Assembly (NCBI RefSeq): GCF_026151205.1
Contig: NC_087082.1
Coordinates: 14,667,365-14,727,364 of the forward strand
DNA length: 60,000 nucleotides
Direction of reading: 5' to 3'
DNA from: Bolinopsis microptera
Taxonomy: Eukaryota > Ctenophora > Tentaculata > Lobata > Bolinopsidae
The notes under the pieces are model-generated. The model saw nothing but the letters and a program-made list of their open reading frames with translations. It ran no database searches and had not been told where the DNA came from. The translations under genes and the position numbers were made by a program. Of the stretch, positions 2,368 to 50,400 are shown piece by piece; position 1 is the first letter of the stretch; each line of letters starts with the position of its first letter.

Positions 2368-2441
2368 CTCCATGTTAAGTTTTCCAACTTCTCTCTGTTG
2401 TTTCTCGGTATCTTTGTCGAAGTCTGGGATCTTAACTTTAC
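2368..2441 (-). CDS. tail exon, charged
   Basis: Strong acceptor TTTGTTTCAG entering in phase 1 and donor GAG/GTAAAT leaving in phase 0. Encodes [20 protein letters not shown] then KLNME, a charged, probably helical stretch. The next exon is not clear and may lie outside the window. If the donor is skipped, the frame runs to a stop 15 codons on. Confidence 0.65.
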
Positions 2442-8400: not shown

Positions 8401-11400
8401 GAGAACAGTGGGAGGGGGGCCAGGGGGAGGGGGGGGAGCCTTTGATAACTCTTCGCTGAGACTCATTTTTATTATTTCCAGTATCGCAACATTTATCGAC
8501 TCAACGTCCGTTTCTATCCTACATTATGCATTTGTAAGAGAGAAGCATTTTGGCTCACACAACTCGTAAAAAGCTCTAGTCACACACCAGTCAGTCACAC
8601 ACACGCGATGCAGGTTTCCGCATGATCGGATCACGGATCACGGATCACAAAGTCTAGAACTCAGCCGCTCTGTCCATAATCACACCGCGCGCTGATTATC
8701 GCTCTCATAATTCCAGACTACGTGCATTAAAACCTGAGCCCTAAACCTGAGCCCTAAACCTGAGCCCTAAACCTGGGCCTTAAACCTGGCCCCTAAGGTA
8801 AAGTTCAACACCCACTAAGGTAGTATACTTAGGTTTATAGAGAGTTCGTTATATTTTTACGCCGTATAATTCGCATTATGGTCGCACACCCCCACAAATA
8901 TGACACGTTATTTCAGGATAATGTTCGCACAGCCCCACAAATATCACACGTTATTTCAGGATAATGTTCGCACAGCAAGTATTCAGCAGCTCCCGCCTAC
9001 AATCTACTCTAGCACCAGAGAGGGGCTGAGTGTGCACTCCCTGCTGCTAGAGTAGTCGCTCACTCACCGATGCTGACATTGGATCCCTGTTTGGCCTGGA
9101 ATTTCTCGAACTCTGCCTGGGAGAGTGTCACGGAGACAATGTCCCCCTCCTGGGTGGACGAGTAGCGCACACCTTCAAACGAGCCCATTCCTTTGAGTGC
9201 CTCGAACGAGGCTGTGTCCACGTTCAGGACTACCTCGGATTCTTCCGATGCTTCCGATGCTTCTGATGCTGGGGCTGATTTTAAACTCATGTCAAATGTG
9301 CTGATTTTATACTCATGTCAAATGTGCTTGTAATAAAGGTTTGTTTTCAAAATTAGAAAAGCATTAGCAAGTGCGTTTGAAATTAAATAATATATCATCA
9401 ATGTGCTTCGACTATTATCCTGTGCTTTTTTTGTGCCAAATGTTTCCAATCATGGAAATCGCAAATTATCGCACATTATCGCACACAAACACACACGAAC
9501 ACACGCTCACACAGACAAATTCGTACCTTGGCCGGAAGCAGCTTTAGCTTGGTTAGCTTGGAACTGCTGCCACTGAGCCTCACTCAGCTTGAATGTCATT
9601 TTACCACCGCTACCAGTAGTGGGCTTTACATCAATACCAGCAAATGAGGACTTCATCATGCTGTATTGGTCAGTCGTCAGGTCTATCACATAGTAACCAC
9701 CTTGGAGACACTTAGTTACTACATGGGAAACACTTGGTTACCAAATTGAGTATACATACACGCACATTGACGATACTTACGCATTTAAAACACTTAGTTA
9801 CCACCTTAGAAACACATAATTACCACCTTAAAAACACATAGTTACCACATTGGAGAAACTTAGTTACCAATTTGATAATATATACGCACACATTGAGAAT
9901 ATTCACGCATTTAAAACACTCAGTGACTCAGGTGTCACTTTGGAAACACTTAGTTACCACTTGGAAACACATAGTAATGATCTTGAGAATACTCGAGTCT
10001 ATCACAAAAATGTTCACTCAGTCACTCATCACTATTTGAGCTTTCTTGTCTCTTTCACCATCCCAAAAAGGGCTCACCCAAACAGAAACACTCACACATT
10101 TAAACACTCTCACACACACTCACTCGAATCTCTAGATACGGAGATTTGTCCAGGTTCGCTGCTACTTTCGGACTGAGAACCAGGGTTAGCTTGGTTAGCT
10201 TGGAACTGCTGCCACTGGGCCTCACTCAGTCTGAAGGTCATTTTACCTCCGCTACCAGTAGTGGGTGTTACATCGATACCAGCAAATGAGGACTGCATCG
10301 ATTTGTACTGCTCAGCTGTTAGGTTCAGCACATAGTAACCACCTTGGAGACACTTAGTTACCACAACTTGAATACACTTAGTTACCAAATGGAGAATACA
10401 TACGCACGCTTTAAAAATATTCACGCATTTAAAACACTTAGTTACCACTTTGGTAACGCTCAGTTACCAAATTGAGAATACACACGCACGCTTTGAGAAT
10501 ATTCACGCATTTAAAACTCTTAGTTACCACCTTGGAAACACTTAGTTACCACCTAAGAAACACTTAGTTACCACTTGGAAACACATAGTGATGATCTTGA
10601 GAATACTAGAGGCTATTACAAAAATGTTCACTCAGTCACTCATCACTATTTGAGCTTTCCTGTCTCTTTCACCGATCACCATCACAAAAAATGGCTCACC
10701 CAAACGGAAACACTCACACACTTAAACACTCTCAAACACACTCACTCGAATCTCTAGATACGGAGATTTGTCCAGGTTCGCTGCTACTTTCGGACTGAGA
10801 ACCAGGGTTAGCTTGGTTAGCTTGGAACTGCTGCCACTGGGCCTCAGTCAGTCTGAATGTCATTTTACCACCACTACCAGTAGTGGGTGTTACATCGATA
10901 CCAGCAAATGAGGACTGCATCGATTTGTACTGCTCAGCTGTTAGATTCAGCACATAGTAACCACCTTGGAAACGCTTAGTTACCAACTCGTTTAAAACTG
11001 TTTCACTTTGCACAAGTACGTGCGTAAAGAAATTTGCTTTGACTAAAAACGGGAACAATTAAGTCTTTGGTAACACTTAGTTACCAAATCGCTAATCGGT
11101 AACACATAGATACCGCCTTGGTAACACTATAGGTCATCACCTTGGTAACATAGAGCAGCTACATTGAGAATACTTGGTAACCACAATGAAATTATTTACA
11201 AACCAAACTAAGAACCTATAACCAACTTGAGAATTCTCACGGCAAATACTTGTTCTCTCATCACTAATTGAGCATTTTTTGTTTCCTTCACCAACAAAGG
11301 CTCACTTAGACCAAAAATAAAACACTCACACGTTAAAAAACACTTTTATAACTTATACCCACGATTGTGCAAAATTGTGCGGAAAACACTTTTATACAAA

Positions 11401-14400
11401 TTTTGATACTCATGGGGCGGCCCATTTGTTAAAAAGAAATTTTGATACTCATGGGGCATGGGTCAGGTATGTCCCACCCGTTAAAAAGAAATTTTGATAC
11501 TCATGGGGCGGCCCACCCTCTGAAAATGTTTTTGATACTGATGGGGCATGGGTCAGGTATGTCCCACCCGTTAAAAAGAAATTTTGATACTCATGGGGCG
11601 GCCCACCCGTTAAAAAGAAATTTTGATACTGATGGGGCATGGGTCAGGTATGTCCCACCCGTTAAAAAGAAATTTTGATACTCATGGGGCATGGGTCAGG
11701 TATGTCCCACCCGTTAAAAAGAAATTTTGATACTCATGGGGCGGCCCACCCGTTAAAAAGAAATTTTGATACTGATGGGGCATGGGTCAGGTATGTCCCA
11801 CCCGTTAAAAAGAAATTTTGATACTCATGGGGCATGGGTCAGGTATGTCCCACCCGTTAAAAAGAAATTTTGATACTCATGGGGCGGCCCACCCGTTAAA
11901 AAGAAATTTTGATACTCATGGGGCGGCCCACCCGTTTAAAAGAAATTTTGATACTGATGGGGCATGGGTCAGGTATGTCCCACCCGTTAAAATAAAATTT
12001 TGATACTCATGGGGCGGCCCACCCGTTAAAAAGAAATTTTGATACTCATGGGGCGGCCCACCCGTTAAAAAGAAATTTTGATACTCATGGGGCATGGGTC
12101 AGGTATGTCCCACCCGTTAAAAAGAAATTTTGATACTCATGGGGCGGCCCACCCGTTAAAAAGAAATTTTGATGCTCATGGGGCGGCCATGAAAAAAAAA
12201 CACCCTCTGAAAATGTTTTTGATACTGATGGGGCATGGGACAGCTATGTCCCACCCCACAAAAATTTGATTGATACTCATGGGGCATGGTACATGAAATC
12301 CCACCAATATTTTCTTCTTGATACTGATGGGGCGGCCCACCCTCTGAAAAAAATATTTTGATACTGATGGGGCTTGGGACAGGTATTTCCCACCCCATAA
12401 AATTTTTATTGATACTCATGGGGCATGGTACACGAAATCCCACCAATGTTTTCTTCTTGATACTGATGGGGCGGCCCACCCTCTGAAAAAAATATTTTGA
12501 TACTGATGGGGCATGGGACAGGTATTTCCCACCCCATAAAATTTGTATTGATACTTATGGGGCATGGTACACGAAATCCCACCAATGTTTTCTTCTTGAT
12601 ACTGATGGGGCGGCCCACCCTCTGAAAAAAATATTTTGATACTGATGGGGCATGGGACAGGTATGTCCCACCCCCTAAAAATATCATTGATACTGATGGG
12701 GCATGGGTCAATATGTCCCACCCCCAAAAAAAATTAGTGATACTCAAGGTCCACCATACAATAGGTTATCACCTTGGTAACACAGAGCAGCAACATTGAG
12801 AATACTTGCTAACCACAATGAAGTGACTTACAAACTAAACTAAAAACCTTTAGCCACCTCGAGAATTCTCACGTCAAATACTTTTTCTATCTCATCGCCA
12901 TTTGAGCATTTTTGTTTCCTTCACCAAAAAGGGCTCACTCCAAACAAAACAAATACACCCACAGACTAAAAAACACTTTTATACCCACGATTGTGCAAAA
13001 TTGTGCGGAAAACGACTGAAAGTGCGAACACAAGCGGAATACGGTCGATAGTGTGATTCCGCAACCGCCACATTTATATGTTGCCTGGCACACACTCACT
13101 CGAATCTCTAGATACGGAGATTTGTCCAGGTTCGCTGCTACTTTCGGACTGAGAACCAGGGTTAGCTTGGTTAGCTTGGAACTGCTGCCACTGGGCCTCA
13201 GTCAGTCTGAATGTCATTTTACCACCACTACCAGTAGTGGGTGTTACATCGATACCAGCAAATGAGGACTGCATCGATTTGTACTGCTGAGCGGTCAGGT
13301 TCAGCACATAGTAACCACCTTGGAGACACTAAGTTACCAAATTGAGAATACACACGCACGTTTTGAGAATATTCACGCATTTAAAACACTTAGTTACCAC
13401 CTTGGAAACACTTAGTTACCATCTTAGAAACACTTAGTTACCACCTTGGAAACACTTAGTTACCATCTTCCTTAAAACTGTTTCACTTTGTACGAGTACA
13501 GAGAGTAAAGGTGCGGGTAAAAAAAGTGCTTTGACTAAAAATGGGAATATTTTAGTCTTTTAAAAACACATAGATACCGCCCTGGTAACAATAGGTTATC
13601 ACCTTGGTAACACAGAGCAGCAACATTGAGAATACTTGCTAACCACAATGAAGTTACTTAGAAACTAAACTAAGAACCTTTAACCACCTCGAGAATTCTC
13701 ACGTCAAATACTTTTTCTATCTCATCGCCATTTGAGCATTTTTGTTTCCTTCACCAAAAAGGGCTCACTCCAAACAAAACAAATACACCCACAGACTAAA
13801 AAACACTTTTATACCCACGATTGTGCAAAATTGTGCGGAAAACGACTGAAAGTGCGAACATAAGCGGAATACGGTCGATATAGTGTGATTCCGCAACCGC
13901 CACATTTATATGTTGCCTGACACACACTCACTCGAATCTCTAGATACGGAGATTTGTCCAGGTTCGCTGCTACTTTCAGACTGAGAACCAGGGTTAGCTT
14001 GGTTAGCTTGGAACTGCTGCCACTGGGCCTCACTCAGTCTGAAGGTCATTTTACCTCCGCTACCAGTAGTGGGTGTTACATCGATACCAGCAAATGAGGA
14101 CTGCATCGATTTGTACTGCTGAGCTGTCAGGTCTAGCACATAGTAACCACCTTGGAGACACTTAGTTACCAACTTGGAAGCGCTCAGTTACCAAATTGAG
14201 AATACACACGCACGCTTTGAGAATATTGACGCATTTAAAACACTTAGTTACCACCTTGGAAACACTTAGTTACCATCTTTTTTAAAACTGATTCACTTTG
14301 TACGAGTACAGAGAGTAGAGGTGCGGGTAAAAAAAAGTGCTTTGACTAAAAATGGGAATATTTAAGTCTTTCAAAAACACATAGATACCGCCCTGGTAAC

Positions 14401-17400
14401 AATAGGTTATCACATTGGTAACACAGAGCAGCAACATTGAGAATACTTGCGCTAACCACAATGAAGTTACTTAGAAACTAAACTAAGAACCTTTAACCAC
14501 CTCGAGAATTCTCACGTCAAATACTTTTTCTATCTCATCGCCATTTGAGCATTTTTGTTTCCTTCACCAAAAAGGGCTCACTCCAAACAAAACAAAAAAC
14601 ACCCACAGACTAAAAAACACTTTCATACCCACGATTGTGCAAAATTGTGCGGAAAACGACTGAAAGTGCGAACATAAGCGGAATACGGTCGATATAGTGT
14701 GATTCCGCAACCGCCACATTTATATGTTGCCTGACACACACTCACTCGAATCTCTAGATACGGAGATTTGTCCAGGTTCGCTGCTACTCTCAGGCTGAGA
14801 ACCTTGGCCGGAAGCAGCTTTAGCTTGGTTAGCTTGGAACTGCTGCCACTGGGGTTCAGTCAATCTGAATGTCATTTTACCACCGCTACCGGTGGTTGGC
14901 TTTACATTGATGCCAGCAAATGAGGACTGCATCGATTTGTACTGCTGAGCTGTCAGGTTCAGCACATAGTAACCACCTTGGAAACGCTTAGTTACCATCT
15001 TGGAAACGCTTACCATTTTGGAACCTTTAAAAAAATACTCACCACGTTAAGAATTCCCACGTCACTTACCCTCAAATATTATCGTCATACACAGTCATTC
15101 GTGATTCTTTAATTATAATAAAAGGGTCCACTACAAGATAAAAACTAACACTCGAAAACATTCACATGTAGATGAATATATGTTTCAACAGACATGCTCA
15201 CACACACACACACACACACACAGACATACAGACACACAGACAGACTCACTAGCATCTATAGATACGGAGATCTCATTTTCGCCGGGCGGACTGCTATCCT
15301 TAGCTTGGGAACCAGCTTTAGCCTGGTTCTCTTGGAAGATGTTCCACTCAGCTGGGCTCAGCTGGACGTTGTAACTTCCGTCAGCGCTGGCAACAGGGGC
15401 CGGGGACAGGTTGATACCCGCGAACCCGTTAGAGAGTTGAATCATCTTCCACAGTGGGGCAGGGATGTGCAACATGTAGTCTCCACCTTAAGGGGTTGTG
15501 TAAGACGGAGCAGGTGGGGGCAGGGGAGAGAGAAATGTGCGGTGATTGTGCTTCTTGGGTTAGAGGTTTCCTTTTTAATTATTTTATCTTGCTTTAATTG
15601 AATTTGCTCTATCTAATGCTTCTATTTTTTGAGTAAAACAGAGAGGGCAGAAAGGTGCTTCAAAATCTCACAAAAAAGATAACGGTAACTAAATAGACCA
15701 AAATCTTGGTCTTTTTTCTAGGAAAACGTTTTCTTAAATAGCTCAAGCAGACGTAGAAATTGCCTGGCAAGAAAGTTCCAGATCAAAAATCAACTAAAAG
15801 CTAAAAGCAAGAGATGCAACAATAATTTTAAGGATTCAAGTTTCAACATATCAAATGAGAGGAAACAGTTGGGTGATCGATCAATCACATCACGTGATAA
15901 TAAGCATTGAAAGCAATTATTCGGGTAATCAGGTCTTTACAAAATTGAGAATCTAGTACAAGCATCTAGCTGCCTATCAGGATCTAGCAGCTAGCTGCCT
16001 ATCAGGATCTAGCAGCTAGCTGCCTATCAGGATCTAGCAGCTAGCTGCCTATCAGGATCAAGCAGCTAGCTGCCTATCAGGATCTAGCAGCTAGCTGCCT
16101 ATCAGGATCTAGCAGCTAGCTGCCTATCAGGATCTAGCAGCTAGCTGCCTATCAGGATCTAGCAGCTAGCTGACAATCAGGATCTAGCAGCTAGCTGCCT
16201 ATCAGGATCTAGCAGCTAGCTGCCTATCAGGATCTAGCAGCTAGCTGACAATCAGGATCTAGCAGCTAGCTGCCTATCAGGATCTAGCAGCTAGCTGCCT
16301 ATCAGGATCTAGCAGCTAGCTGCCTATCAGGATCTAGCAGCTAGCTGCCTATCAGGATCTAGCAGCTAGCTGCCTATCAGGATCTAGCAGCTAGCTGCCT
16401 ATCAGGATCTAGCAGCTAGCTGCCTATCAGGATCTAGCAGCTAGCTGACAATCAGGATCTAGCAGCTAGCTGCCTATCAGGATCTAGCAGCTAGCTGCCT
16501 ATCAGGATCTAGCAGCTAGCTGCCTATCAGGATCTAGCAGCTAGCTGCCTATCAGGATCTAGCAGCTAGCTGCCTATCAGGATCTAGCAGCTAGCTGCCT
16601 ATCAGGATCTAGCAGCTAGCTGCCTATCAGGATCTAGCAGCTAGCTGACAATCAGGATCTAGCAGCTAGCTGCCTATCAGGATCTAGCAGCTAGCTGCCT
16701 ATCAGGATCTAGCAGCTAGCTGCCTATCAGGATCTAGCAGCTAGCTGCCTATCAGGATCTAGCAGCTAGCTGCCTATCAGGATCTAGCAGCTAGCTGCCT
16801 ATCAGGATCTAGCAGCTAGCTGCCTATCAGGATCTAGCAGCTAGCTGCCTATCAGGATCTAGCAGCTAGCTGCCTATCAGGATCTAGCAGCTAGCTGCCT
16901 ATCAGGATCTAGCAGCTAGCTGCCTATCAGGATCTAGCAGCTAGCTGCCTATCAGGATCTAGCAGCTAGCTGCCTATCAGGATCTAGCAGCTAGCTGCCT
17001 ATCAGGATCTAGCAGCTAGCTGCCTATCAGGATCTAGCAGCTAGCTGCCTATCAGGATCTAGCAGCTAGCTGCCTATCAGGATCTAGCAGCTAGCTGCCT
17101 ATCAGGATCTAGCAGCTAGCTGCCTATCAGGATCTAGCAGCTAGCTACCTATCAGGATCTAGCAGCTAGCTGCCTATCAGGATCTAGCAGCTAGCTGCCT
17201 ATCAGGATCTAGCAGCTAGCTGCCTATCAGGATCTAGCAGCTAGCTGCCTATCAGGATCTAGCAGCTAGCTGCCTATCAGGATCTAGCAGCTAGCTGCCT
17301 ATCAGGATCTAGCAGCTAGCTGCCTATCAGGATCTAGCAGCTAGCTGCCTATCAGGATCTAGCAGCTAGCTGCCTATCAGGATCTAGCAGCTAGCTGCCT

Positions 17401-32400: not shown

Positions 32401-35400
32401 GAATTGGACAGCTCGAAGTTTAAACAGCATATTATAAATGATGATTCTTGTTCGGAAAATATCATAGCAAGTGATTAAACGCTTAAATTATCATTCTGGA
32501 TGCAATCTACTTTAAGATGGAAAGTTTAAACAGCGACTAAAACGTACTGGGCTCTTTTGTTACAATTATTTGGTCTACAGGTTTCTCCTCCGGTTTCTCT
32601 TCAGGTTTTTTAGGTTCCTGTCCGGGAGAAAGTTTCTCAGGTTCAGGTTCCTTTCCAGAAGCAGGTTTTGCAGGTTCTGCTGGAACAGGAATTGCAGGTT
32701 TCTTCTGATTCTCCTCGAACACCTTGAACTGAGTTGTGGTCAGTTTCACAGTGTAGCTGCCATCAGGATTGGGTTTAGGGTTTGGAGTTGGTCTGATTCC
32801 CTCAAATCTCTTGTTTTGTACCAGAATCTTCCACAATGGTGCGGGTATTTGTAGAACAGTCTTACCACCTTGAGTAATAACAAATACTTATACATTTATA
32901 TCTGTTTCCATTGTAATGTTTTCACAGAAACCATCTAAATGTTGCAGAAAAAGGTAGCTATGTTCAACAAAGATGGATAAGACCTAAAGCATTTGATTTC
33001 AATATTGAAGATACAAATTATTTTTAAGATAAGAACATAGCAAATGCTTGAAAAATTATGGAACAGAACATAAGTGCAGCAGTAAAATTGTCGATGCAAG
33101 AATAAACAAAGTAGATAGGATTATTTGATTTGGGACTTTTTAAGGAGAATAGTAAAAATCTTTTATAGGGATCGGTGTGTTAAAAAGGGAGCCACCGCTC
33201 GATTCTGAAATATCAGACTCATAGAAGTCACTGCTTTCAAAACTTAACACACAATCAGGAAATTTGAAAGTGAAATTGTATTGCTTCAAAACTCGAAGTA
33301 TTTCGTTTTTGACAGAGAACATATCATGACATTTAAGTAAAACAGTTATATTATCATTCTGGATGCAAATCTACTTTAGGATAGGATGTTATCATTGCAG
33401 CTAAAACGTACTGGGCTCTTTTGTTACGGTAATTTGGTCTACAGGTTTCTCCTCCGGTTTCTCTTCAGGTTTTTTAGGTTCCTGTCCGGGAGAAAGTTTC
33501 TCAGGTTCAGGTTCCTTTCCAGGAGAAGGTTTTGCAGGTTCTGCTGGAACAGGGATTGCAGGTTTCTTCTGGTTCTCCTCGAACACCTTGAACTGAGTTG
33601 TGGTCAGTTTCACAGTGTAGCTGCCATCAGGATTGGGTTTGGGGTTTGGAGTTGGTCTGATTCCCTCAAATCTCTTGTTTTGTACCAGAATCTTCATTAA
33701 TGGAGCAGGTATTTGTAGAACAGTCTTACCACCTTGAGTGATAACAAATACGTAAGTATGCTGCAATTCTCGAGTTTACTCATGTTGTTATCATATTAAA
33801 GTTTAAACTATCAATATGCTGCACAAAGTTAAAGCAAAACTGTTTTCTATATAAGAATAGAAATGGGATAATAAATGCTCAAAAAGTTTGTGATCAGTGA
33901 AAAATGAGAGTCGAAGATGCAAACTGCTCCATTCAAAGTGATTCACGATGAAATAGTTGTAATGGAAATTGAATAGCTCGAAGTGATGTTTTTTTGTTAG
34001 GAAAATATTATGGCAAGTGAGTAAAACGGTTAAATTATCATTCTGGATGCAAATCTACTTTGGGATTGAAAATTTTCACTGAGACTAAAACGTACTGGGC
34101 TCTTTTGTTACGGTAATTTGGTCTACAGGTTTCTCCTCCGGTTTCTCTTCAGGTTTTTTAGGTTCCTGTCCAGGAGCAGATTTTTCAGGTTCCTTTCCAA
34201 GAGAAGGTTCCTCGGGTTCAGGTTCCTTTCCAGAAGCAGGTTTTGCAGGTTCTGCTGGAACAGGGATTGCAGGTTTCTTCTGATTCTCCTCGAACACCTT
34301 GAACTGAGTTGTGGTCAGTTTCACAGTGTAGCTGCCATCAGGATTGGGTTTGGGGTTTGGAGTTGGTCTGATTCCCTCAAATCTCTTGTTTTGTACCAGA
34401 ATCTTCCACAATGGTGCGGGTATTTGTAGAACAGTCTTACCACCTTGAGTAATAACAAATACTTATACATTTATATCTGTTTCCATTGTAATGTTTTCAC
34501 AGAAACCATCTAAATGTTGCAGAAAAAGGTAGCTATGTTCAACAAAGATGGATAAGACCTAAAGCATTTGATTTCAATATTGAAGATACAAATTATTTTG
34601 AAGATAAGAACATAGCAAATGCTTGAAAAATTATGGAACAGAACATAAGTGCAGCAGTAAAATTGTCGATGCAAGAATAAACAAAGTAGATAGGATTATT
34701 TGATTTGGGACTTTTTAAGGAGAATAATAAAAATCTTTTATAGGGATCGGTGTGTTAAAAAGGGAGCCACCGCTCGATTCTGAAATATCAGACTCATAGA
34801 AGTCACTGCTTTCAAAACTTAACACACAATCAGGAAATTTGAAAGTGAAATTGTATTGCTTCAAAACTCGAAGTATTTCGTTTTTGACAGAGAACATATC
34901 ATGACATTTAAGTAAAACAGTTATATTATCATTCTGGATGCAAATCTACTTTAGGATAGGATGTTATCATTGCAGCTAAAACGTACTGGGCTCTTTTGTT
35001 ACGGTAATTTGGTCTACAGGTTTCTCCTCCGGTTTCTCTTCAGGTTTTTTAGGTTCCTGTCCGGGAGAAAGTTTCTCAGGTTCAGGTTCCTTTCCAGGAG
35101 AAGGTTTTGCAGGTTCTGCTGGAACAGGGATTGCAGGTTTCTTCTGGTTCTCCTCGAACACCTTGAACTGAGTTGTGGTCAGTTTCACAGTGTAGCTGCC
35201 ATCAGGATTGGGTTTGGGGTTTGGAGTTGGTCTGATTCCCTCAAATCTCTTGTTTTGTACCAGAATCTTCATTAATGGAGCAGGTATTTGTAGAACAGTC
35301 TTACCACCTTGAGTGATAACAAATACGTAAGTATGCTGCAATTCTCGAGTTTACTCATGTTGTTATCATATTAAAGTTTAAACTATCAATATGCTGCACA

Positions 35401-38400
35401 AAGTTAAAGCAAAACTGTTTTCTATATAAGAATAGAAATGGGGATAATAAATGCTCAAAAAGTTTGTGATCAGTGAAAAATGAGAGTCGAAGATGCAAAC
35501 TGCTCCATTCAAAGTGATTCACGATGAAATAGTTGTAATGGAAATTGAATAGCTCGAAGTGATGTTTTTTTGTTATGAAAATATTATGGCAAGTGAGTAA
35601 AACGGTTAAATTATCATTCTGGATGCAAATCTACTTTGGGATTGAAAATTTTCACTGCGACTAAAACGTACTGGGCTCTTTTGTTACGGTAATTTGGTCT
35701 ACAGGTTTCTCCTCCGGTTTCTCTTCAGGTTTTTTAGGTTCCTGTCCAGGAGCAGATTTTTCAGGTTCCTTTCCAAGAGAAGGTTCCTCGGGTTCAGGTT
35801 CCTTTCCAGAAGCAGGTTTTGCAGGTTCTGCTGGAACAGGGATTGCAGGTTTCTTCTGATTCTCCTCGAACACCTTGAACTGAGTTGTGGTCAGTTTCAC
35901 AGTGTAGCTGCCATCAGGATTGGGTTTGGGGTTTGGAGTTGGTCTGATTCCCTCAAATCTCTTGTTTTGTACCAGAATCTTCCACAATGGTGCGGGTATT
36001 TGTAGAACAGTCTTACCACCTTGAGTAATAACAAATACTTATACATTTATATCTGTTTCCATTGTAATGTTTTCACAGAAACCATCTAAATGTTGCAGAA
36101 AAAGGTAGCTATGTTCAACAAAGATGGATAAGACCTAAAGCATTTGATTTCAATATTGAAGATACAAATTATTTTGAAGATAAGAACATAGCAAATGCTT
36201 GAAAAATTATGGAACAGAACATAAGTGCAGCAGTAAAATTGTCGATGCAAGAATAAACAAAGTAGATAGGATTATTTGATTTGGGACTTTTTAAGGAGAA
36301 TAATAAAAATCTTTTATAGGGATCGGTGTGTTAAAAAGGGAGCCACCGCTCGATTCTGAAATATCAGACTCATAGAAGTCACTGCTTTCAAAACTTAACA
36401 CACAATCAGGAAATTTGGAAGTGAAATTGTATTGCTTCAAAACTCGAAGTATTTCGTTTTTGACAGAGAACATATCATGACATTTAAGTAAAACAGTTAT
36501 ATTATCATTCTGGATGCAAATCTACTTTAGGATAGGATGTTATCATTGCAGCTAAAACGTACTGGGCTCTTTTGTTACGGTAATTTGGTCTACAGGTTTC
36601 TCCTCCGGTTTCTCTTCAGGTTTTTTAGGTTCCTGTCCGGGAGAAAGTTTCTCAGGTTCAGGTTCCTTTCCAGGAGAAGGTTTTGCAGGTTCTGCTGGAA
36701 CAGGGATTGCAGGTTTCTTCTGGTTCTCCTCGAACACCTTGAACTGAGTTGTGGTCAGTTTCACAGTGTAGCTGCCATCAGGATTGGGTTTGGGGTTTGG
36801 AGTTGGTCTGATTCCCTCAAATCTCTTGTTTTGTACCAGAATCTTCATTAATGGAGCAGGTATTTGTAGAACAGTCTTACCACCTTGAGTGATAACAAAT
36901 ACGTAAGTATGCTGCAATTCTCGAGTTTACTCATGTTGTTATCATATTAAAGTTTAAACTATCAATATGCTGCACAAAGTTAAAGCAAAACTGTTTTCTA
37001 TATAAGAATAGAAATGGGGATAATAAATGCTCAAAAAGTTTGTGATCAGTGAAAAATGAGAGTCGAAGATGCAAACTGCTCCATTCAAAGTGATTCACGA
37101 TGAAATAGTTGTAATGGAAATTGAATAGCTCGAAGTGATGTTTTTTTTGTTATGAAAATATTATGGCAAGTGAGTAAAACGGTTAAATTATCATTCTGGA
37201 TGCAAATCTACTTTGGGATTGAAAATTTTCACTGCGACTAAAACGTACTGGGCTCTTTTGTTACGGTAATTTGGTCTACAGGTTTCTCCTCCGGTTTCTC
37301 TTCAGGTTTTTTAGGTTCCTGTCCAGGAGCAGATTTTTCAGGTTCCTTTCCAAGAGAAGGTTCCTCGGGTTCAGGTTCCTTTCCAGAAGCAGGTTTTGCA
37401 GGTTCTGCTGGAACAGGGATTGCAGGTTTCTTCTGATTCTCCTCGAACACCTTGAACTGAGTTGTGGTCAGTTTCACAGTGTAGCTGCCATCAGGATTGG
37501 GTTTGGGGTTTGGAGTTGGTCTGATTCCCTCAAATCTCTTGTTTTGTACCAGAATCTTCCACAATGGTGCGGGTATTTGTAGAACAGTCTTACCACCTTG
37601 AGTAATAACAAATACTTATACATTTATATCTGTTTCCATTGTAATGTTTTCACAGAAACCATCTAAATGTTGCAGAAAAAGGTAGCTATGTTCAACAAAG
37701 ATGGATAAGACCTAAAGCATTTGATTTCAATATTGAAGATACAAATTATTTTGAAGATAAGAACATAGCAAATGCTTGAAAAATTATGGAACAGAACATA
37801 AGTGCAGCAGTAAAATTGTCGATGCAAGAATAAACAAAGTAGATAGGATTATTTGATTTGGGACTTTTTAAGGAGAATAATAAAAATCTTTTATAGGGAT
37901 CGGTGTGTTAAAAAGGGAGCCACCGCTCGATTCTGAAATATCAGACTCATAGAAGTCACTGCTTTCAAAACTTAACACACAATCAGGAAATTTGAAAGTG
38001 AAATTGTATTGCTTCAAAACTCGAAGTATTTCGTTTTTGACAGAGAACATATCATGACATTTAAGTAAAACAGTTATATTATCATTCTGGATGCAAATCT
38101 ACTTTAGGATAGGATGTTATCATTGCAGCTAAAACGTACTGGGCTCTTTTGTTACGGTAATTTGGTCTACAGGTTTCTCCTCCGGTTTCTTTTCAGGTTT
38201 TTTAGGTTCCAGTCCGGGAGAAAGTTTCGCAGGTTCAGGTTCCTTTCCAGGAGAAGGTTTTGCAGGTTCTGCTGGAACAGGGATTGCAGGTTTCTTCTGG
38301 TTCTCCTCGAACACCTTGAACTGAGTTGTGGTCAGTTTCACAGTGTAGCTGCCATCAGGATTAGGTTTGGGGTTTGGAGTTGGTCTGATTCCCTCAAATC

Positions 38401-41400
38401 TCTTGTTTTGTACCAGAATCTTCATTAATGGAGCAGGTATTTGTAGAACAGTCTTACCACCTTAAGTGATAACAAATACGTAAGTATGCTGCAATTCTCG
38501 AGTTTACTCATGTTGTTATCATATTAAAGTTTAAACTATCAATATGCTGCACAAAGTTAAAGCAAAACTGTTTTCTATATAAGAATAGAAATGGGGATAA
38601 TAAATGCTCAAAAAGTTTGTGATCAGTGAAAAATGAGAGTCGAGGATGCAAACTGCTCCATTCAAAGTGATTCACGATGAAATAGTTGTAATGGAAATTG
38701 AATAGCTCGAAGTGATGTTTTTTTGTTAGGAAAATATTATGGCAAGTGAGTAAAACGGTTAAATTATCATTCTGGATGCAAATCTACTTTGGGATTGAAA
38801 ATTTTCACTGCGACTAAAACGTACTGGGCTCTTTTGTTACAGTAATTTGGTCTACAGGTTTCTCCTCCGGTTTCTCTTCAGGTTTTTTAGGTTCCTGTCC
38901 AGGAGCAGATTTTTCAGGTTCCTTTCCAAGAGAAGGTTCCTCGGGTTCAGGTTCCTTTCCAGAAGCAGGTTTTGCAGGTTCTGCTGGAACAGGGATTGCA
39001 GGTTTCTTCTGATTCTCCTCGAACACCTTGAACTGAGTTGTGGTCAGTTTCACAGTGTAGCTGCCATCAGGATTTGGTTTGGGGTTTGGAGTTGGTCTGA
39101 TTCCCTCAAATCTCTTGTTTTGTTCCAGAATCTTCATTAATGGAGCAGGTATTTGTAGAACAGTCTTACCACCTTAAGTGATAACAAATACGTAAGTATG
39201 ATGCACTCCTCGAGTTTACTCATGATGTTATCAAATTAAACCATCAATATGCTGCAAAAAGTTAAAGCAAAACTATTTTTATTATAAGAATAGAAATGGG
39301 GACAATAAATGCTAAAAAAGTGTGGGATCAGTGAAAAATGAGAGTCGAAGATGCAAACTGCTCCATTTAAAGTTAAATATTTGAAATGGGAATTTGACAT
39401 CTCGAAGTTTAAACAGCATATTATAAAGTGATGATTTTTTGTTAGAAGAAGTCATGGCAATTGAGTAAAACACCTTAATTATCATTCTGGATGCAAATCT
39501 AGGATGGAGAGTTTTCACTGCAGCTAAAACGTACTGGGCTCTTTTGTTACAGTAATTTGGTCTACAGGTTTCTCCTCCGGTTTCTCTTCAGGTTTTTTAG
39601 GTTCCTGTCCAGGAGAAAGTTTCTCAGGTTCAGGTTCCTTTCCAGAAGCAGGTTTTGCAGGTTCTGCTGGAACAGGAATTGCGGGCTTCTTCTGGTTCTC
39701 CTCGAACACCTTGAACTGAGTTGTGGTCAGTTTCACAGTGTAGCTGCCATCAGGATTGGGTTTGGGGTTTGGAGTTGGCCTGATTCCCTCGAATCTCTTG
39801 TTTTGTTCCAGAATCTTCATTAATGGAGCAGGTATTTGTAGAACAGTCTTACCACCTTGAGTAATAACAAATACGTAAGTATGATGTAATTCTCGAGTTT
39901 ACTCATGATGTTATCACATCCAACCATCAATATGCTGCACAAACTTAAAGCCAAACTATTTCAATATAAGAATAGACAATGGGGATAATAAATGTTCAAA
40001 CAGTGTGGGATCAGTGAAACATGAGATTCGAAGATGTAAATATTTGAAATGGGAATTTGAAATCTCGAAGTTTAAACAGCATATTATAAAGTGATGATTT
40101 TTTTGTTAGAAGAAGTCATGGCAAGTGAGTAAAACAGTTATATTATCATTCTGGATGCAAATCTACTTTAGGATAGAATGTTATCATTGCAACTAAAACG
40201 TACTGGGCTCTTTTGTTACGGTAATTTGGTCTACAGGTTTCTCCTCCGGTTTCTCTTCGGGTTTTTTAGGTTCCTGTCCGGGAGAAAGTTTATCAGGTTC
40301 AGGTTCCTTTCCAGGAGAAGGTTTTGCAGGTTCTGCTGGAACAGGAATTGGGGGTTTCTTCTGGTTCTCCTCGAACACCTTGAACTGAGTTGTAGTCAGT
40401 TTCACAGTGTAGCTGCCATCAGGATTGGGTTTAGGGTTTGGAGTTGGCCTGATTCCCTCAAATCTCTTGTTTTGTTCCAGAATCTTCATTAATGGAGCAG
40501 GTATTTGTAGAACAGTCTTACCACCTTGAGTGATAACAAATACGTAAGTATGATGTAATTCTCGAGTTTACTCATGATGTTATCACATCCAACCATCAAT
40601 ATGCTGCACAAAGTTAAAGCAAAATTGTTTTTAATATAAGAATAGACATGGGGACAATAAATGCTCAAAAAGGGTGGGATCAGTGAAACATGAGATTCGA
40701 AGATGCAGACTGCTCCATTGACTTACAATGAACTAATCGTAATGGATATTTAACAGCTCAAAGTGTAAACAGCATATTATAAAGACGTGTTAATTTTTGT
40801 TCGGAAAATATCATTGCAAGTGAGTAAAACGCTTAAATTATCATTCTGGATGCAAATCTAGGATGGAAAGTTTTCACTTCAGCTAAAACGTACTGGGCTC
40901 TTTTGTTACAGTAATTTGGTCTACAGGTTTCTCCTCCGGTTTCTCTTCAGGTTTTTTAGGTTCCTGTCCGGGAGAAAGTTTCTCAGGTTCAGGTTCCTTT
41001 CCAGAAGCAGGTTTTGCAGGTTCTGCAGGAACAGGAATTGCAGGGTTTCTTCTGGTTCTCCTCGAACACCTTGAACTGAGTTGTAGTCAGTTTCACAGTG
41101 TAGCTACCATCAGGATTTGGTTTGGGATTCGGGGTAGGTCTGATTCCCTCAAATCTCTTGTTTTGTTCCAGAATCTTCATTAATGGAGCAGGTATTTGTA
41201 GAACAGTCTTACCACCTTGAGTGATAACAAATACGTAAGTATGATGCATTTCTCGAGTTTACTCATGATGTTATCACATCCAACCATCAATATGCTGCAC
41301 AAAGTTAAAACAAAATTGTTTTCAATATAAGAATAGAAATGGGAATAATAAATGCTCAAAAAGCGTGGGATCAGTGAAAAATGAGATCCGAAGATGCAGA

Positions 41401-44400: not shown

Positions 44401-47400
44401 CTGTTTCTCAGCAGGTTTCTCAGCAGGTTTCTCAGGAGCCTTCTCAGGTATGAGTACTTCCAGAGGCAAATTAGCAGGTTTCTTTACATTGTCCTGGAAC
44501 TGTTGCCACTGAGTGCTAGTAAGTCTAACAGTGAAGCTGCCGTCAGGGTTCTCCTCTGGCTTGGGAGTCGGTCTCATGCCGTCAAACCTGCTGTTGATCT
44601 GCAGGATCTTCATCAAGGAGACAGGAATTTGCAGGCAGTATTTTCCACCTTAAAATATAAACAATTGGTGTCGACAATAATTTCATTTTAGTGGGACAAT
44701 TTTGATTCGCAGTCATGACGTTGTTCATTGAGAAAACAGACGTTCCTAAAAGAGAGGCTGCACTAAGACGGTTCAAAGTTTTAATGATAGAAAAAAACCA
44801 AGGTCAGCCTAAGTTCGTTGTTATGGTGTTATCAAGATGAACTTCTTCTTTTAAAGGAAAATCCATGACTGGACTTAAGGAAAAAATGAGAGGAAACGAA
44901 GGATAAACTAAAAAATGCTGAGAAGAAGAAGCAGATGGCAGATATCCAGTAAACGTACTGGGTTCTCTCTGAACGGAGATGTTATCTTTAGGTTGATTGG
45001 CCGGGGCCCTTCCGGTGTTAGGTCGCTCAAGAGGAGCTAGATTGGCGGGCTTTTTCATGTTCTCTTGGAACACCGTCCATTGAGTGGTGGTGAGTTTCAC
45101 CGTGTAGCTGTCATCAGGATTAGGCTTTGGGTTTGGAGTTGGGTTGATTCCCTCGAACCTTTTGTTTATTTTGAGGATCTTCATCATAGGAGCTGGTATA
45201 TGCAGAACATATTCTCCACCTTGAAAAGTATAACATTGGGATGAAGATACAACTCGTGAAATGATGGTGGTGAAATTTTGGAACAGTTAGTTCCGTGTTT
45301 AACAATTTTTGTATACTCTTAATCTAAATTAATCGTCATAAGTGCTTTTAATCGATAATTACTGATAATGCTTTATATTGAAAGGAATCATGTGCTTTGA
45401 AATTAATAACTGTTCTTCAATAACTGCACTGGAGATTTACCTCTTCTCACTTTTACAGTTGCAGTAATCTAATTAAGTTTGTGCTTTTCTAAATTGTTTA
45501 AGGTTGTAATTTGGAAATTTATTTCTGATGGTTGAAAAATCACACGAAACACATAGATTATATATTAGGAAGAGATAGTTAAGGTGGCAGCAACTTAAAC
45601 ATACTGGGATCTTGAGTGACGGATATGGTGTCATCAGCTGGCTTATCTGCTGGCTTATCTGCAGGCTTATCTGCTGGCTTATCTGCTGGTTTATCAGCTG
45701 GCTTTCCAGTTTCAGGTTCTGCTGGAACTGGAATTGGTGCCTTCTTCTGGTTGTCTTGGAAGATCTGCCACTGTTTAGGAGAGAGCTTCACGGTGCGACT
45801 ACCATCGGGGTTCGATTTAGGGTTGGGTGTTGGTTTGATTCCGTCAAATCCTTTGTTTTGTTGGATGATCTTCCACAATGGAGCAGGGATTTGTAGGACG
45901 AATTTACCACCTTGAGAACACAGTAAATTAAATAATATTAATGGCGTATAATGTTATGTAAAACTAAGGACAAGTTAATTATATTATGTAGTCATGCAAA
46001 ATTCAAATGGTGACAACTTAAAGTTGTCACCCAACGCGAAGTAAACGTAGATATCAACGCTACGTAATAAAGTTCTTAAAGCTTTAAAGGGTTTCAGTTT
46101 ATAGATTGCAACATTAACGAGTAATAGGTCAAAATATGGATGACGGAAGTTCTGAAGAGGATGTAATATAGTGCTCAAAGTATATCAAATTGATGATTGT
46201 AAGTTGGAAACAGGAAAAATTTTAGCCAGAATCTGGCTCAGAATTGATAATAAATATTGCTGCATGATGACAATTTGAAGAGATGACAATTTGAAGAGAT
46301 GACAATTTGAAGAGTTTTTGATTAAAAACGAAGAGAAGCTGGTGCTGAGAGATCTGCTTGTAAACGTTAAAACGTACTGGGGTCTTTAGTTACAGAGATC
46401 TCATCAGTAGGCTTATCTGCTGGCTTATCAGCTGGTTTATCAGCTGGTTTATCAGCTGGCTTATCAGCTGGCTTTCCAGTTTCAGGTTCTGCTGGAACAG
46501 GAATTGGTGCTTTCTTCTGGTTGTTTTGGAAGATCTGCCACTGTTTAGGGGAGAGCTTCACGGTGCGACTGCCATCAGGATTCGATTTAGGGTTGGGTGT
46601 TGGCTTGATTCCATCAAATCCTTTGTTTTGTTGGATGATCTTCCACATTGGAGCAGGGATTTTCAGGACAAACTTACCACCTTAGACGAAAACAAACTTA
46701 GATACAAAATACAAAATGGTAAATTATTACTGCAGATATTTTTCTCACCTTCTAATCAGAAGCGTAAGAATTCTGAATCACTTACTCGTAATTACTAATT
46801 ATATTTTACGTTACAACCGCAAAAAAAACTGTTTACCGTACCTTAAAGTGCTGCATCACGAATACATACTGAACTATTTGTTCCAAAATCACCCGAATCA
46901 AAAACCCAGCACAGCACACCCTAGTGTGCCCTAAATAGCACACCCTAAATAGCACACCCTAAAAAGTGTGCCCTAAAAAGTGTGCCCTAAATAGCACACC
47001 CTAAATAGCACACCCTAAAAAGTGTGCCCTAAAAAGTGTGCCCTAAATAGTGTCCCACACTTACTTGGGTCCTGAGTGACACTAATAGAAGAATCGTCAG
47101 CGGGCTCCTCGGGGGCAGCCTGTGGTTTATTTTGGTTATCCTGGAAGATCTTGTACTCCTCCGGGCTCATGTTGATCACGTAATCACCGTCTGTAGAAGG
47201 AGAAGGATTAGCAAAATATTGGGGTACAACCCTAAGTCAAAGTAGTTTTTTACTGTTAGATACTTTTCTTTGTTTCTTCTCCGAAGTATCCCCTTGCAAA
47301 GGAGTCCTAAATAAACTTTAAAACACTACAAGACTTTAAGACACTACAATTGTGACAACCACCCTTCCCCCTAGAAGCTTCAAAGCTCCACATCAAACTT

Positions 47401-50400
47401 ACTAGGCTCGGTTGTAGGTTGAAGTTTGAGTCCGTTGAAGAATCCGGCAGTCTTGAACTGCTCGAATTGAGCTGGAGTCAGCTTCAGACTGTATGCTCCA
47501 TCTCCTGTGAGGACATGTTTATTTAACAAAGGATAAATATGTGCATTGTGCATATGAATAATCTTTTTAGATATGAAATGAAATGTGCTCAGTTCTCTAG
47601 CAGTTTTATTTACTGGTCTGTGGTATTTTGTACGCTATTCCTTAGTTACAATGCGGGTCTACAAAATCTATTTGGCAATTTTACAACTCTCTGAATAAAA
47701 CAGTCTAATAAAATAATGAGCGTGTTAACACTTAACAGTCTCAAATTTTTTTAAACAGCTTCCCCCTTACATTTAGACAGCTTCTCAGTGGGGGAAATTA
47801 TTTGTGGACGGTATTCCTACCGGAAGTGGTAGGGTTCAGTCCGCCATTAAAGGTGGAATATGTGACTTGGAAGGGCTGTGATAGGGCAAGGAATATTGCA
47901 ACTCCTTGATTGGTTGCTGTTTTAAAACTCTATTGAAAGGTGTCCGGGAACTAGATAACTAATACAGGTGACTTAAGTAAAAATGAACTTAAGTTTTCTG
48001 AGTTGACAGGTGATATAAATGAACTTAAGTTGGTACAGGTTGATGTTTACGGTGTGAGGTGGACTGTCTGGGAAACTAGGGAATGTGAAATGTCTATATC
48101 TATAGTATAAAGTATAGGATGTTAGAATAAAATATCAAGCTCGACAATAATACTGAAATGCTTCTCTGCTAGTGATGCTACTATGCTCAACATTTAATTG
48201 CAATTTAAAATATATAAAATGCTTTTTATATATCCATGATTTGTTAAATATCAAATAATAATAATTCCAAAATCTTGAAAGATCCCCTGTTGGAAATGTT
48301 GGTGTACAGTACCTGTAGCTCCAAGGTTAACTTGGAAGGTGCTCCATTCAGCACTGGTCAGCTTGATATGGTAATTGCCTCCAGTGCCGATATCGTGCGA
48401 CACGTTGAGGCCTCTAAATGCTCCAATAGTGTTCAGGATATCGTACTCATTAGGCTTCGTTATTAGTATATACCCACCGCCTTGCAGGTGGCATGCTTTA
48501 GTAATATATTTAAAGTGCTGTTAAAACATTTAGGATGCAAATACAATAAGTAAAAAGTTGAGCTAATATATCATTCAATTTGCATAAAAACAACTTTCAT
48601 CCATCAGGGTATTCGTCAAACTATACCAAAACCACTTGGAACACTGCCAAAAACTGAAAATTTCCTTTTGAAGAAGGTACCTGGCTGAGCCTGGACATTA
48701 ATCTGCTGCATAATGGTCTGGGTATACACCATCTTCATGTTTATCTGCATCTGCTGCCACTGGGTCCTGTCCATCACTATGGTGAACCTTCCATCGGGGC
48801 CTTTGGTGGCCTTCACATTCATACCGCTCAGGGCTTGGTTTGATTGCATGGTAGTCCATTGTACTTCAGACATGATGAGGTGGTAGGACCCATCTAATAA
48901 ACAAATAAATGCTATAACATAGATGTTTTCATTCCAATAATTCGGCAATGCATCGTTGATAGTGTACAACGTTTCGGCTGCATTATGCGTATAAATGCAT
49001 TATCATTTTTTTGTATTCAAGTATTCAAAATATTTTGCTTAACATATGCTTATCTTGCAGAAATATATTATAACGGATTCAGAAGAGAAACGAAGAATTG
49101 GTAATGCTTTTAAACTTGCAATGCAGTAAAATAACAGAAACACACCTGGTGCCTTTGTAAGAGCGTCTTGATCAACACCTTCTGGTAAAAGTACACCACT
49201 TTCTGGCTTAGAGTCTGGTGGGGAGCGGGTTTAAGTAATTTTGTGATAATTTTGTGAATCGTTATTGAAACACACGTAAATTAGGCATGCAAAAGTACTG
49301 AAAACTTTAATCACGAATATAAATGAAGCACGAGTTGATTTCGCGATTAATTATTTTATCATGACTGTACAAGTATACCCAATTCTTGTGCTAACACCCA
49401 CATGCATCATGCTACACAGAACTTTAAGACAGCGAGTTTTTGACTAGAAAAAGCATCAAGCAACGAATATTCGGCAACAAATAAATCAGAGGTCGTCAAA
49501 ACATCATAATATAGTTATTAGTTATGACAACAGAATTTTGAGCATGCAGAAATTTCTCAATATTTTGATAAGATCAAGGGGTTCCAAAGCAAAGGACATT
49601 ATATGATGTTGAGACGAAGCCATACAATTGCTTTTAACCTTCAGTCTGTTTGGGAGCCTCAGGCTTTGCTTCGGGTTTTTCTTGTGGTTTCTTAGAGACA
49701 GGTTCTTCGGCAGGCTTTTTCTCAGCAGGCTTTTTCTCTTCAGGCTTGCTGTTCAGAGGCTGCAAAGTTGATGGAGGGGCTTCTAATTCTGGTGCTGTTT
49801 CCAATTGGAGATCATCAGCTTCCAGATCTATCACAAGGTCTTCCATGGAGAATTCTTCAAGGTCGATTTCTTCTGGCTTATCCTCTTTTGGGGCATCCTT
49901 AGGGGCGTCTTTAGGAGCGTCCTTAGGGGCAACAGGCTTCTTATCAACAGCTACAGGAGCTTTCTGCACAGCTTCCTTTCTATCCTCTTCAGCAGTAGGG
50001 AGAGAGTCTTCAGGTTCTTCTGGTAAATCTTCAGATTCTAAGAGTTCTGGCTGAGCAGCAGATTTTGGTGCAGCCTTTGGCTCTGCAGGTTTAGGTGCAG
50101 CTGGCTCTTCCTTTTTGGGTTCAGGTATGGGCTCTTCTGCTTTCTTTGGCTCTTTCTTCTTCTTCCATGCAGGTTCCTTTGGTTTTTCTTCAGCTGGTTT
50201 TTCTTCTGGCTTCTTCTTCTCGTCAGCAGTTTTCTCCCAAGGTTTTTTGGGTTTTGATGGAGCCTTTTTCTCTTCTGGTTTAGGCTTATCTTCAGCTTTG
50301 GGAGCGCTATCCTTAGGAGCGTCCTTAGGAGCAACAGGCTTCTTATCAACAGCTACAGGAGCTTTCTGCACAGCTTCCTTTCTATCCTCTTCAGCAGTAG

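Follow-up and report, generated by a model that had tools for sequence, protein, structure and literature searches.

The minus strand of a 60,000-nucleotide window of the Bolinopsis microptera genome (NC_087082.1; coordinates are those of this window unless another locus is named) carries an array of 48 copies of a small domain, predicted to be alpha/beta, in exons bounded by phase-1 introns. By analogy with titin, we tentatively suggest that the array is part of a modular structural protein that is specific to this lineage and acts as a spring or scaffold in the manner of titin. In favor of this are the 48 phase 1-1 domains, purifying selection, linkers in which 60% of residues are Pro, Glu, Val, or Lys (P/E/V/K), the near absence of Cys, and a predicted local distance difference test score (pLDDT) near 90 in the core. 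A constant turn set against a variable linker, PEEKK repeats and a second folded module upstream, and an exon without a hydrophobic start ahead of a related array on contig C1 point the same way. In such a protein, the exons would be joined into one giant filament-like product. Its small folded modules, interspersed with disordered PEVK-like segments, would act as an entropic spring, and the domains would be spacers or sites at which a partner, itself repeated at regular intervals, docks. An intracellular, cytoskeletal location is slightly favored; the location, the partner, and the force-bearing role are all putative.

To find copies, a profile seeded with a single core was run iteratively against the translation in six frames. 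All 51 stretches that it matched are on the minus strand; 49 scored above 15 bits, and 47 of these were near full length (47 to 115 bits). The stretches at 47,505 and 47,212 are two halves of one further domain, which brings the total to 48, the number given for 9068 to 48893 by an earlier, sequence-only reading of this DNA; two stretches below 15 bits (11,120 and 26,663) were left out of the count. The exon of the first core begins at 48,893 and that of the last extends to 9,068, and the profile found no more cores in window positions 1 to 9062 or in the 10 kb further on. The same reading had placed one module in each exon. This stood for the 47 copies lying in single exons; it did not stand for the copy split over two exons or for the first strand, which lies in the preceding exon.

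9068..48893, minus strand: array of 48 predicted beta-beta-alpha-beta-beta-alpha domains in phase 1-1 exons, with P/E/K/A-rich linkers between them (profile, splice-site, and composition analysis).

Of 49 stretches, 45 have a strong phase-1 donor after the core; in phase 0, such a donor was present in 2, and in phase 2, in 8. The acceptor AG/GTGG (the slash marks the splice site) was seen 44 times, always in phase 1. These figures come from a comparison covering all three phases. Because the initial listing of splice sites took phase-1 sites only, exon lengths divisible by three are no evidence. The cores evolve under purifying selection: the median ratio of nonsynonymous to synonymous substitution rates (dN/dS) among 36 cores was 0.14, with 298 of 300 pairs below 0.5, counting nonidentical pairs with 0.05<dS<1. 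In a 3' subfamily of six cores, all 15 pairs were likewise below 0.5. The array is divided into subfamilies along its length, many central copies are near-identical, and Gly, Phe, and Asn positions are conserved in the core.

The usual intron falls in the first hairpin turn of the domain, so that the strand ISVTKDP closes one exon and GKYVLQIP begins the next. Between the first strand and the turn glycine, the distance is constant in 41 of 42 joined domains, the remaining one being one residue shorter, whereas the linker that joins the second helix to the following ISV strand can be as short as 8 or as long as 125 residues (42 exons; two more of the 44 measured have no trailing strand at their end). 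Since the turn is constant in length and the linker variable, the hairpin lies within one domain and the linker between domains. On these measurements, the unit is beta-beta-alpha-beta-beta-alpha. Two exons encode each domain: an exon contributes five of a domain's six secondary-structure elements, followed by the opening strand of the domain after it. With its first strand in the preceding exon, the domain comes to about 65 residues and straddles an intron, and the earlier core length of roughly 55 residues was too short. Two copies at other loci, described below, have the hairpin unbroken: an exon on C7 (copy at L016:418-615) encodes RFRLELEDNTKDQTTLTLTKEEF together with the remainder of the domain, uninterrupted, with phase 1 at both ends by eye, and the first copy on C1 (L001:8018-8236) has both hairpin strands in one open reading frame (ORF).

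The domain had also been described as two similar beta-beta-alpha halves, and hhalign bears this out locally. When 33 distinct first halves were compared with 33 distinct second halves, the local match had a probability of 92 and a score of 28.1 over 22 columns (probability 23 in global mode), and none of 200 column shuffles scored as high (mean, 7.5; maximum, 17.4; maximum probability, 29). The two halves look homologous by this comparison, and most simply, an exon of roughly 35 residues with a phase-1 intron on either side would have been duplicated. The linkers between domains are 60% P/E/V/K (63% with another trimming), and 4% of their residues are aromatic, Ile, Leu, or Met. A single Cys occurs in 4,166 residues.

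A structure was predicted with AlphaFold2 from 36 of the 45 exon translations listed, in exon register. The model had a mean pLDDT of 82, about 90 in the core, and a predicted template modeling (TM) score of 0.68, with the elements in the order strand-helix-(weak strand)-strand-helix-strand. As the input was in exon register, the last modeled strand belongs to the next domain and here fills the place of the missing first strand; beta-alpha-beta-beta-alpha-beta in exon register therefore corresponds to beta-beta-alpha twice in domain register. The strands and helices called earlier from residue patterns agree with the model. A Foldseek search of the PDB gave no match at or below an E value of 0.001. 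Its top three rows were PII proteins (E, 0.012 to 0.016; probability, 0.93 to 0.97; query TM score, 0.47 to 0.49), among them PII/GlnB 1hwu_E, which aligned over the whole length of the exon-register model (E, 0.012; probability, 0.96; query TM score, 0.49). Aspartokinase and other alpha/beta proteins ranked below PII. The best VIA-align 2 matches were aspartokinase 2hmf (root mean square deviation [rmsd] of 3.8 over 70) and E2 1by9 (rmsd of 3.1 over 65), both with a Z score of 5.4, which is below the level that this tool calls telling and well under 8.

We read the predicted fold as an alpha/beta plait that is circularly permuted in its natural register, and it is probably not new in its parts. 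The array domain differs from the ferredoxin-like plaits (PII, the ACT domain of aspartokinase, papillomavirus E2, and RRM) in having only about 10% identity and weak scores, a circularly permuted strand order (beta-beta-alpha twice), and an internal sequence repeat. The DCoH-like fold is beta-beta-alpha-beta-beta-alpha in the SCOP classification, the same element order as that of the array domain in domain register. No DCoH protein was among the 50 rows listed by Foldseek and VIA-align 2, which is not evidence against this likeness because the model searched was in exon register.

The module had been called unrecognized, and sequence libraries gave no consistent match that would change this. 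Against Pfam, the most widely matched family was seen in 3 of 36 members, and the best E value was 0.005; against NCBIfam, the best was 0.028, in 1 of 36. A PDB profile search with the core gave a best E value of 0.44, to an unrelated chain. No immunoglobulin (Ig) or FN3 domain was found by Pfam in the 36 array members or in P0001, and no PII, ACT, RRM, or E2 family was among the Pfam and NCBIfam matches listed for the 36 members. Candidates seen below the Pfam cutoffs were set aside, among them Phytase-like (0.012 to 0.014), Peptidase_M24_C (0.005 to 0.021), DUF6146 (0.0065), and PT (0.0072), in one member each; NESP55, in three members (best E, 0.084); RecT (0.015) and Fuz_longin (0.1), in relatives of the array; FemAB_like (0.01 to 0.03) and LRR_TTSS (0.026), in flanking exons; and Extensin (0.0006), in the low-complexity part of P0001 at 20 bits against a cutoff of 105. 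Gelsolin was a first guess and plays no part. We also considered PC4/PUR-type single-strand binders on account of the hairpin-helix with Trp. No such family appeared among the Pfam matches at E values up to 1, where HMMER filters drop most weak matches, or in the 50 Foldseek rows listed, and its absence from those rows is not evidence against it. Rfam had no match in the window at the gathering threshold. A bacterial origin was dropped: the single match in 84,980 prokaryote genomes (L014) was of 26 residues in an unrelated ORF, in a search that reaches close relatives only. No paper recognized as describing the domain was found in the literature searched, which leaves most subscription-journal papers outside it.

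The family is not confined to this gene. Protein searches of the genome (264.65 Mb in 232 contigs) revealed a second locus at C1 20.446 to 20.454 Mb, and with the C1 copies as queries a third (C7 15.488 to 15.494 Mb) and a fourth (C1b, at C1 4.09 Mb) were found. Profile counts gave at least 8 copies on C1, at least 17 on C7, and at least 2 at C1b. Group profiles, made separately, matched with probabilities of 99.2 (window and C1), 96.7 (window and C7), 96.9 (window and C1b), 98.4 (C1 and C7), and 97.2 (C1 and C1b), compared with at most 3.0 in 60 shuffles of each pair (2.1 or less for pairs with the window). The C7-C1b match was weak, at 39.6, with shuffles up to 24.2. By these profiles, the window copies and those of the other loci form one domain family. 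When 60 distinct cores were placed in a tree, one branch (support, 96/89) set the window copies apart and another (100/98) the C7 copies, which suggests that the arrays grew mostly within their loci. The eight C1 copies were not one group; a single C1 origin is still possible.

The relatives keep different company. Directly upstream of the 17 copies on C7 lie a WSC domain (E, 1e-6), two SRCR domains (E, 1.3e-7 and 1.5e-12), and a Ser-rich stretch. This region shares its domain family with the window array and differs in its other domains and in its copies, which are distantly alike and form a separate group. The C7 locus is possibly a secreted relative, although membership of WSC/SRCR and the C7 array in one gene is putative. 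Ahead of the C1 array lies an exon that reads MSWKDRQKT, lacks a hydrophobic start, and has many PxWKxxLKK motifs, similar to the P/E/K-rich exon of the window. This exon had no PDB match at E values up to 1 and none elsewhere in the genome at E values up to 0.1, in a search that also missed the window's own WK exon. The motif may resemble actin-binding motifs (phostensin, taperin, and the DFRxxL of myosin light chain kinase), a putative likeness.

L015:5818-8272 (C7:15.4838-15.4863 Mb): WSC domain, two SRCR domains, and Ser-rich stretch.

Upstream of the array in the window are a very long exon and a second repeated domain.

55155..59173, minus strand: very long exon within a 1,434-residue open frame (start by eye).
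54479..56681, minus strand: second repeated domain, predicted to be all-beta and present six times; five copies share one exon (55155-56681), and the sixth is split over two ORFs within 54479-55047.

In order, the long exon encodes about ten Y/S/T/P-rich 12-residue repeats, acidic 10-residue (SEDLP) repeats, about 12 PEEKK repeats, and five beta domains. From its strand, its order, and the shared SEDLP repeats, we infer that it belongs to the array gene. The all-beta domain is 86 to 94 residues long and was predicted with a pLDDT of 91.6. It had no Pfam match at E values up to 1, no Foldseek match in the PDB with an E value below 0.35, and a best Z score of 5.3 (a chloroplast NDH supercomplex chain and rhizavidin). 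Ser/Gly/Tyr-rich and Tyr-rich exons lie further upstream (YSGSYSGSGSYSG; DYPLIGTLYEGQYSYLLPKGYSNHKDYLEHL; L005 and window 59648-59998), with no Pfam match over the cutoff. They may represent the N terminus or a neighboring gene.

Titin combines small folded modules, repeated in tandem on a giant scale, with disordered segments rich in P/E/V/K, and its exons are symmetrical; the Bolinopsis array resembles titin/connectin in all three respects, its linkers having the composition of titin-type PEVK-like segments. Unlike the Ig or FN3 modules of titin, those of the array are alpha/beta, with no sequence relation found, and the PEVK-like linkers stand between domains, whereas those of titin are in one block. 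We noticed no kinase on reading the ORFs past the array end, flanks that were not scanned with Pfam. A 2025 paper (PMC12198301) states that ctenophores are without a connectin/titin-type protein ("connectitin"), and a separate ctenophore spring would matter for that reason. That ctenophores evolved a giant spring of their own from scratch, through duplication of a ~35-residue beta-alpha-beta exon into a permuted alpha/beta plait now present, between PEVK-like linkers, in 48 copies whose number is still changing, we regard as rather unlikely in its entirety.

Several points weigh against a titin-like protein. The N terminus of the gene was not found, and a signal peptide is possible there. The WSC and SRCR domains upstream of the C7 relative are of kinds usually found outside the cell, and sequons, while fewer than in shuffles, are present (9 observed and 16.4 expected, with a standard deviation of 3.6). 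Since runs of I-set immunoglobulin domains exist in this genome, for example, at C9 9.20 to 9.25 Mb, other giant modular proteins may do the work of a spring, and PEVK-like composition alone does not show elasticity. The AlphaFold2 model exists in exon register only, the permuted domain register following from the constant turn and the contiguous L001 and L016 copies. In global mode, the two halves matched with a score of only 23.6 over 31 columns, so that their likeness rests on the second strand and helix; the half alignments were made separately, with 33 distinct halves taken from 42 joined domains and three others excluded beforehand. The C7 copies had been picked by a profile containing window copies before the profiles were compared, and the tree was built from few columns, with many of its forks weak. 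For the all-beta domain, the model was built from five rows only, and a single-sequence search found it nowhere else in the genome at E values up to 0.1 and missed one of the six window copies, which makes its absence elsewhere weak.

The C9 run of I-set exons, on one strand at C9:9199324-9247933, is itself a candidate giant Ig protein, and the idea that this genome has no Ig giant was dropped because of such runs. The 145 matches of the search that revealed them are all on contigs C1 to C13; ctenophores studied so far have n = 13 (PMC10232365). Two ionotropic glutamate receptors encoded in this genome match the receptor ML032222a, of Mnemiopsis leidyi, best in the PDB.

A secreted structural or adhesive protein of mucus, tentacle glue, or mesoglea, whose domains cross-link and whose Tyr/Lys/Ser/Pro repeats are sticky, is a rather unlikely alternative. 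The WSC, SRCR, and Ser-rich company of the C7 relative would suit it, and so would the roughly ten 12-residue repeats upstream of the array, which are reminiscent of the decapeptides of mussel foot proteins. Against this, no signal peptide was seen, though the N terminus was not located, nearly no Cys is present, and the C1 and small C1 loci look intracellular (no hydrophobic start; polybasic and polyproline stretches); in addition, the linkage of WSC/SRCR to the C7 array in one gene is only putative. Literature on colloblasts cuts both ways: PMC6278862 reports that ctenophore-specific genes are over-represented among colloblast candidates and that these candidates are not enriched in low-complexity sequence.

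The giant size, the many near-identical central copies, the conserved Gly, Phe, and Asn positions, and the subfamilies along the array would also fit a rigid, nonelastic scaffold or ruler, located in the cortex or in cilia (comb plates), with one polymer unit docked at each domain. Linkers that vary from 8 to 125 residues are unlike a strict ruler, and we judge this explanation quite improbable. Lastly, the locus might not encode one functional protein at all: its exon array may be in flux and in part a pseudogene, or it may comprise several short genes. The gene is known here from genomic DNA alone, its tandem duplications are very recent, and the frame is shifted in the core exon at 41,219 and near 50,720; however, a noisy long-read assembly could also give two frame shifts, and a single phase has been kept at donors and acceptors alike, with a low dN/dS. 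This last explanation is highly improbable.

If the titin-like reading is true, an early animal lineage assembled an architecture like that of titin out of unrelated components, and convergence of ctenophore contractile or ciliary systems would become testable with one gene. Whatever the function, an internal repeat, intron places, and recent tandem growth are all readable from one locus, which also adds an alpha/beta and an all-beta domain family, neither with a Pfam match above the cutoff or a convincing PDB match.

Some exons within and around the array depart from the usual pattern.

49639..50996, minus strand: exon rich in P/E/K (start approximate) that carries KPWEKT and PAWKKK motifs and splices in phase 1 to the exon at 49,214.
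49146..49214, minus strand: short exon (23 residues), probable first strand of the first domain, joined by eye from phase-1 donor G/GTGTG to acceptor TTATTAG/AT at 48,893.
47403..47504, minus strand: half-domain exon (102 bp, phase 1-1) with the second strand and helix of half 1 and the first strand of half 2 (by eye; partial profile match, 47505-47452).
47065..47190, minus strand: remainder of the split domain, with the second half and linker (by eye; partial profile match, 47212-47126; donor listed).
40992..41219, minus strand: core exon with a shifted linker frame and no in-frame strong donor (profile matches, donor list).
9063..9274, minus strand: last exon, with a diverged core, then GSNVSIGE and an in-frame stop at 9063-9065 (start by eye).

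In the short exon, the turn APDGS occupies the place of DPSG. The split domain (47.5 to 47.1 kb) has a phase-1 intron in the hairpin turn of half 2, homologous by eye to the usual intron place in half 1; the other copies have it in half 1 only. Four stretches are without a strong donor: those at 48,891 and 48,484 have weaker GTAC donors by eye, that at 41,219 has its linker frame shifted, and that at 9,704 has a weak donor. The frame of the P/E/K-rich exon is broken once, near 50,720. At this place and in 40992-41219, the frame is shifted relative to sister copies, and either shift may reflect an assembly error or decay. A strong donor overlaps the place of the stop in the last exon, and a further exon after 9063 is therefore possible.

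Recent growth is most evident in the middle of the array.

32869..39172, minus strand: block in which a unit of two exons, about 1,576 bp long with its introns, occurs about four times.

Within these units, the 864-bp parts are 99.3 to 99.9% identical and the roughly 712-bp parts are 98.3 to 99.9% identical. With tandem units this similar, copy number probably varies between individuals; gene conversion would look alike. Minisatellites also lie between core exons at 15961-17964 (25 bp x 80, 98% alike), 18308-18727 (32 bp x 13), and 22099-22818 (48 bp x 15), and a satellite-like repeat with GATACTCATGGGGC units, with periods of 39, 52, and 91 bp, fills one intron of the 3' part (11398-12744). 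The C1 array contains an inverted pair of long ORFs (L002:431-4508; C1:20.4484-20.4525 Mb) with a reverse-transcriptase match below the Pfam cutoff (E, 2e-5), an arrangement that we take to resemble a Penelope-like element.

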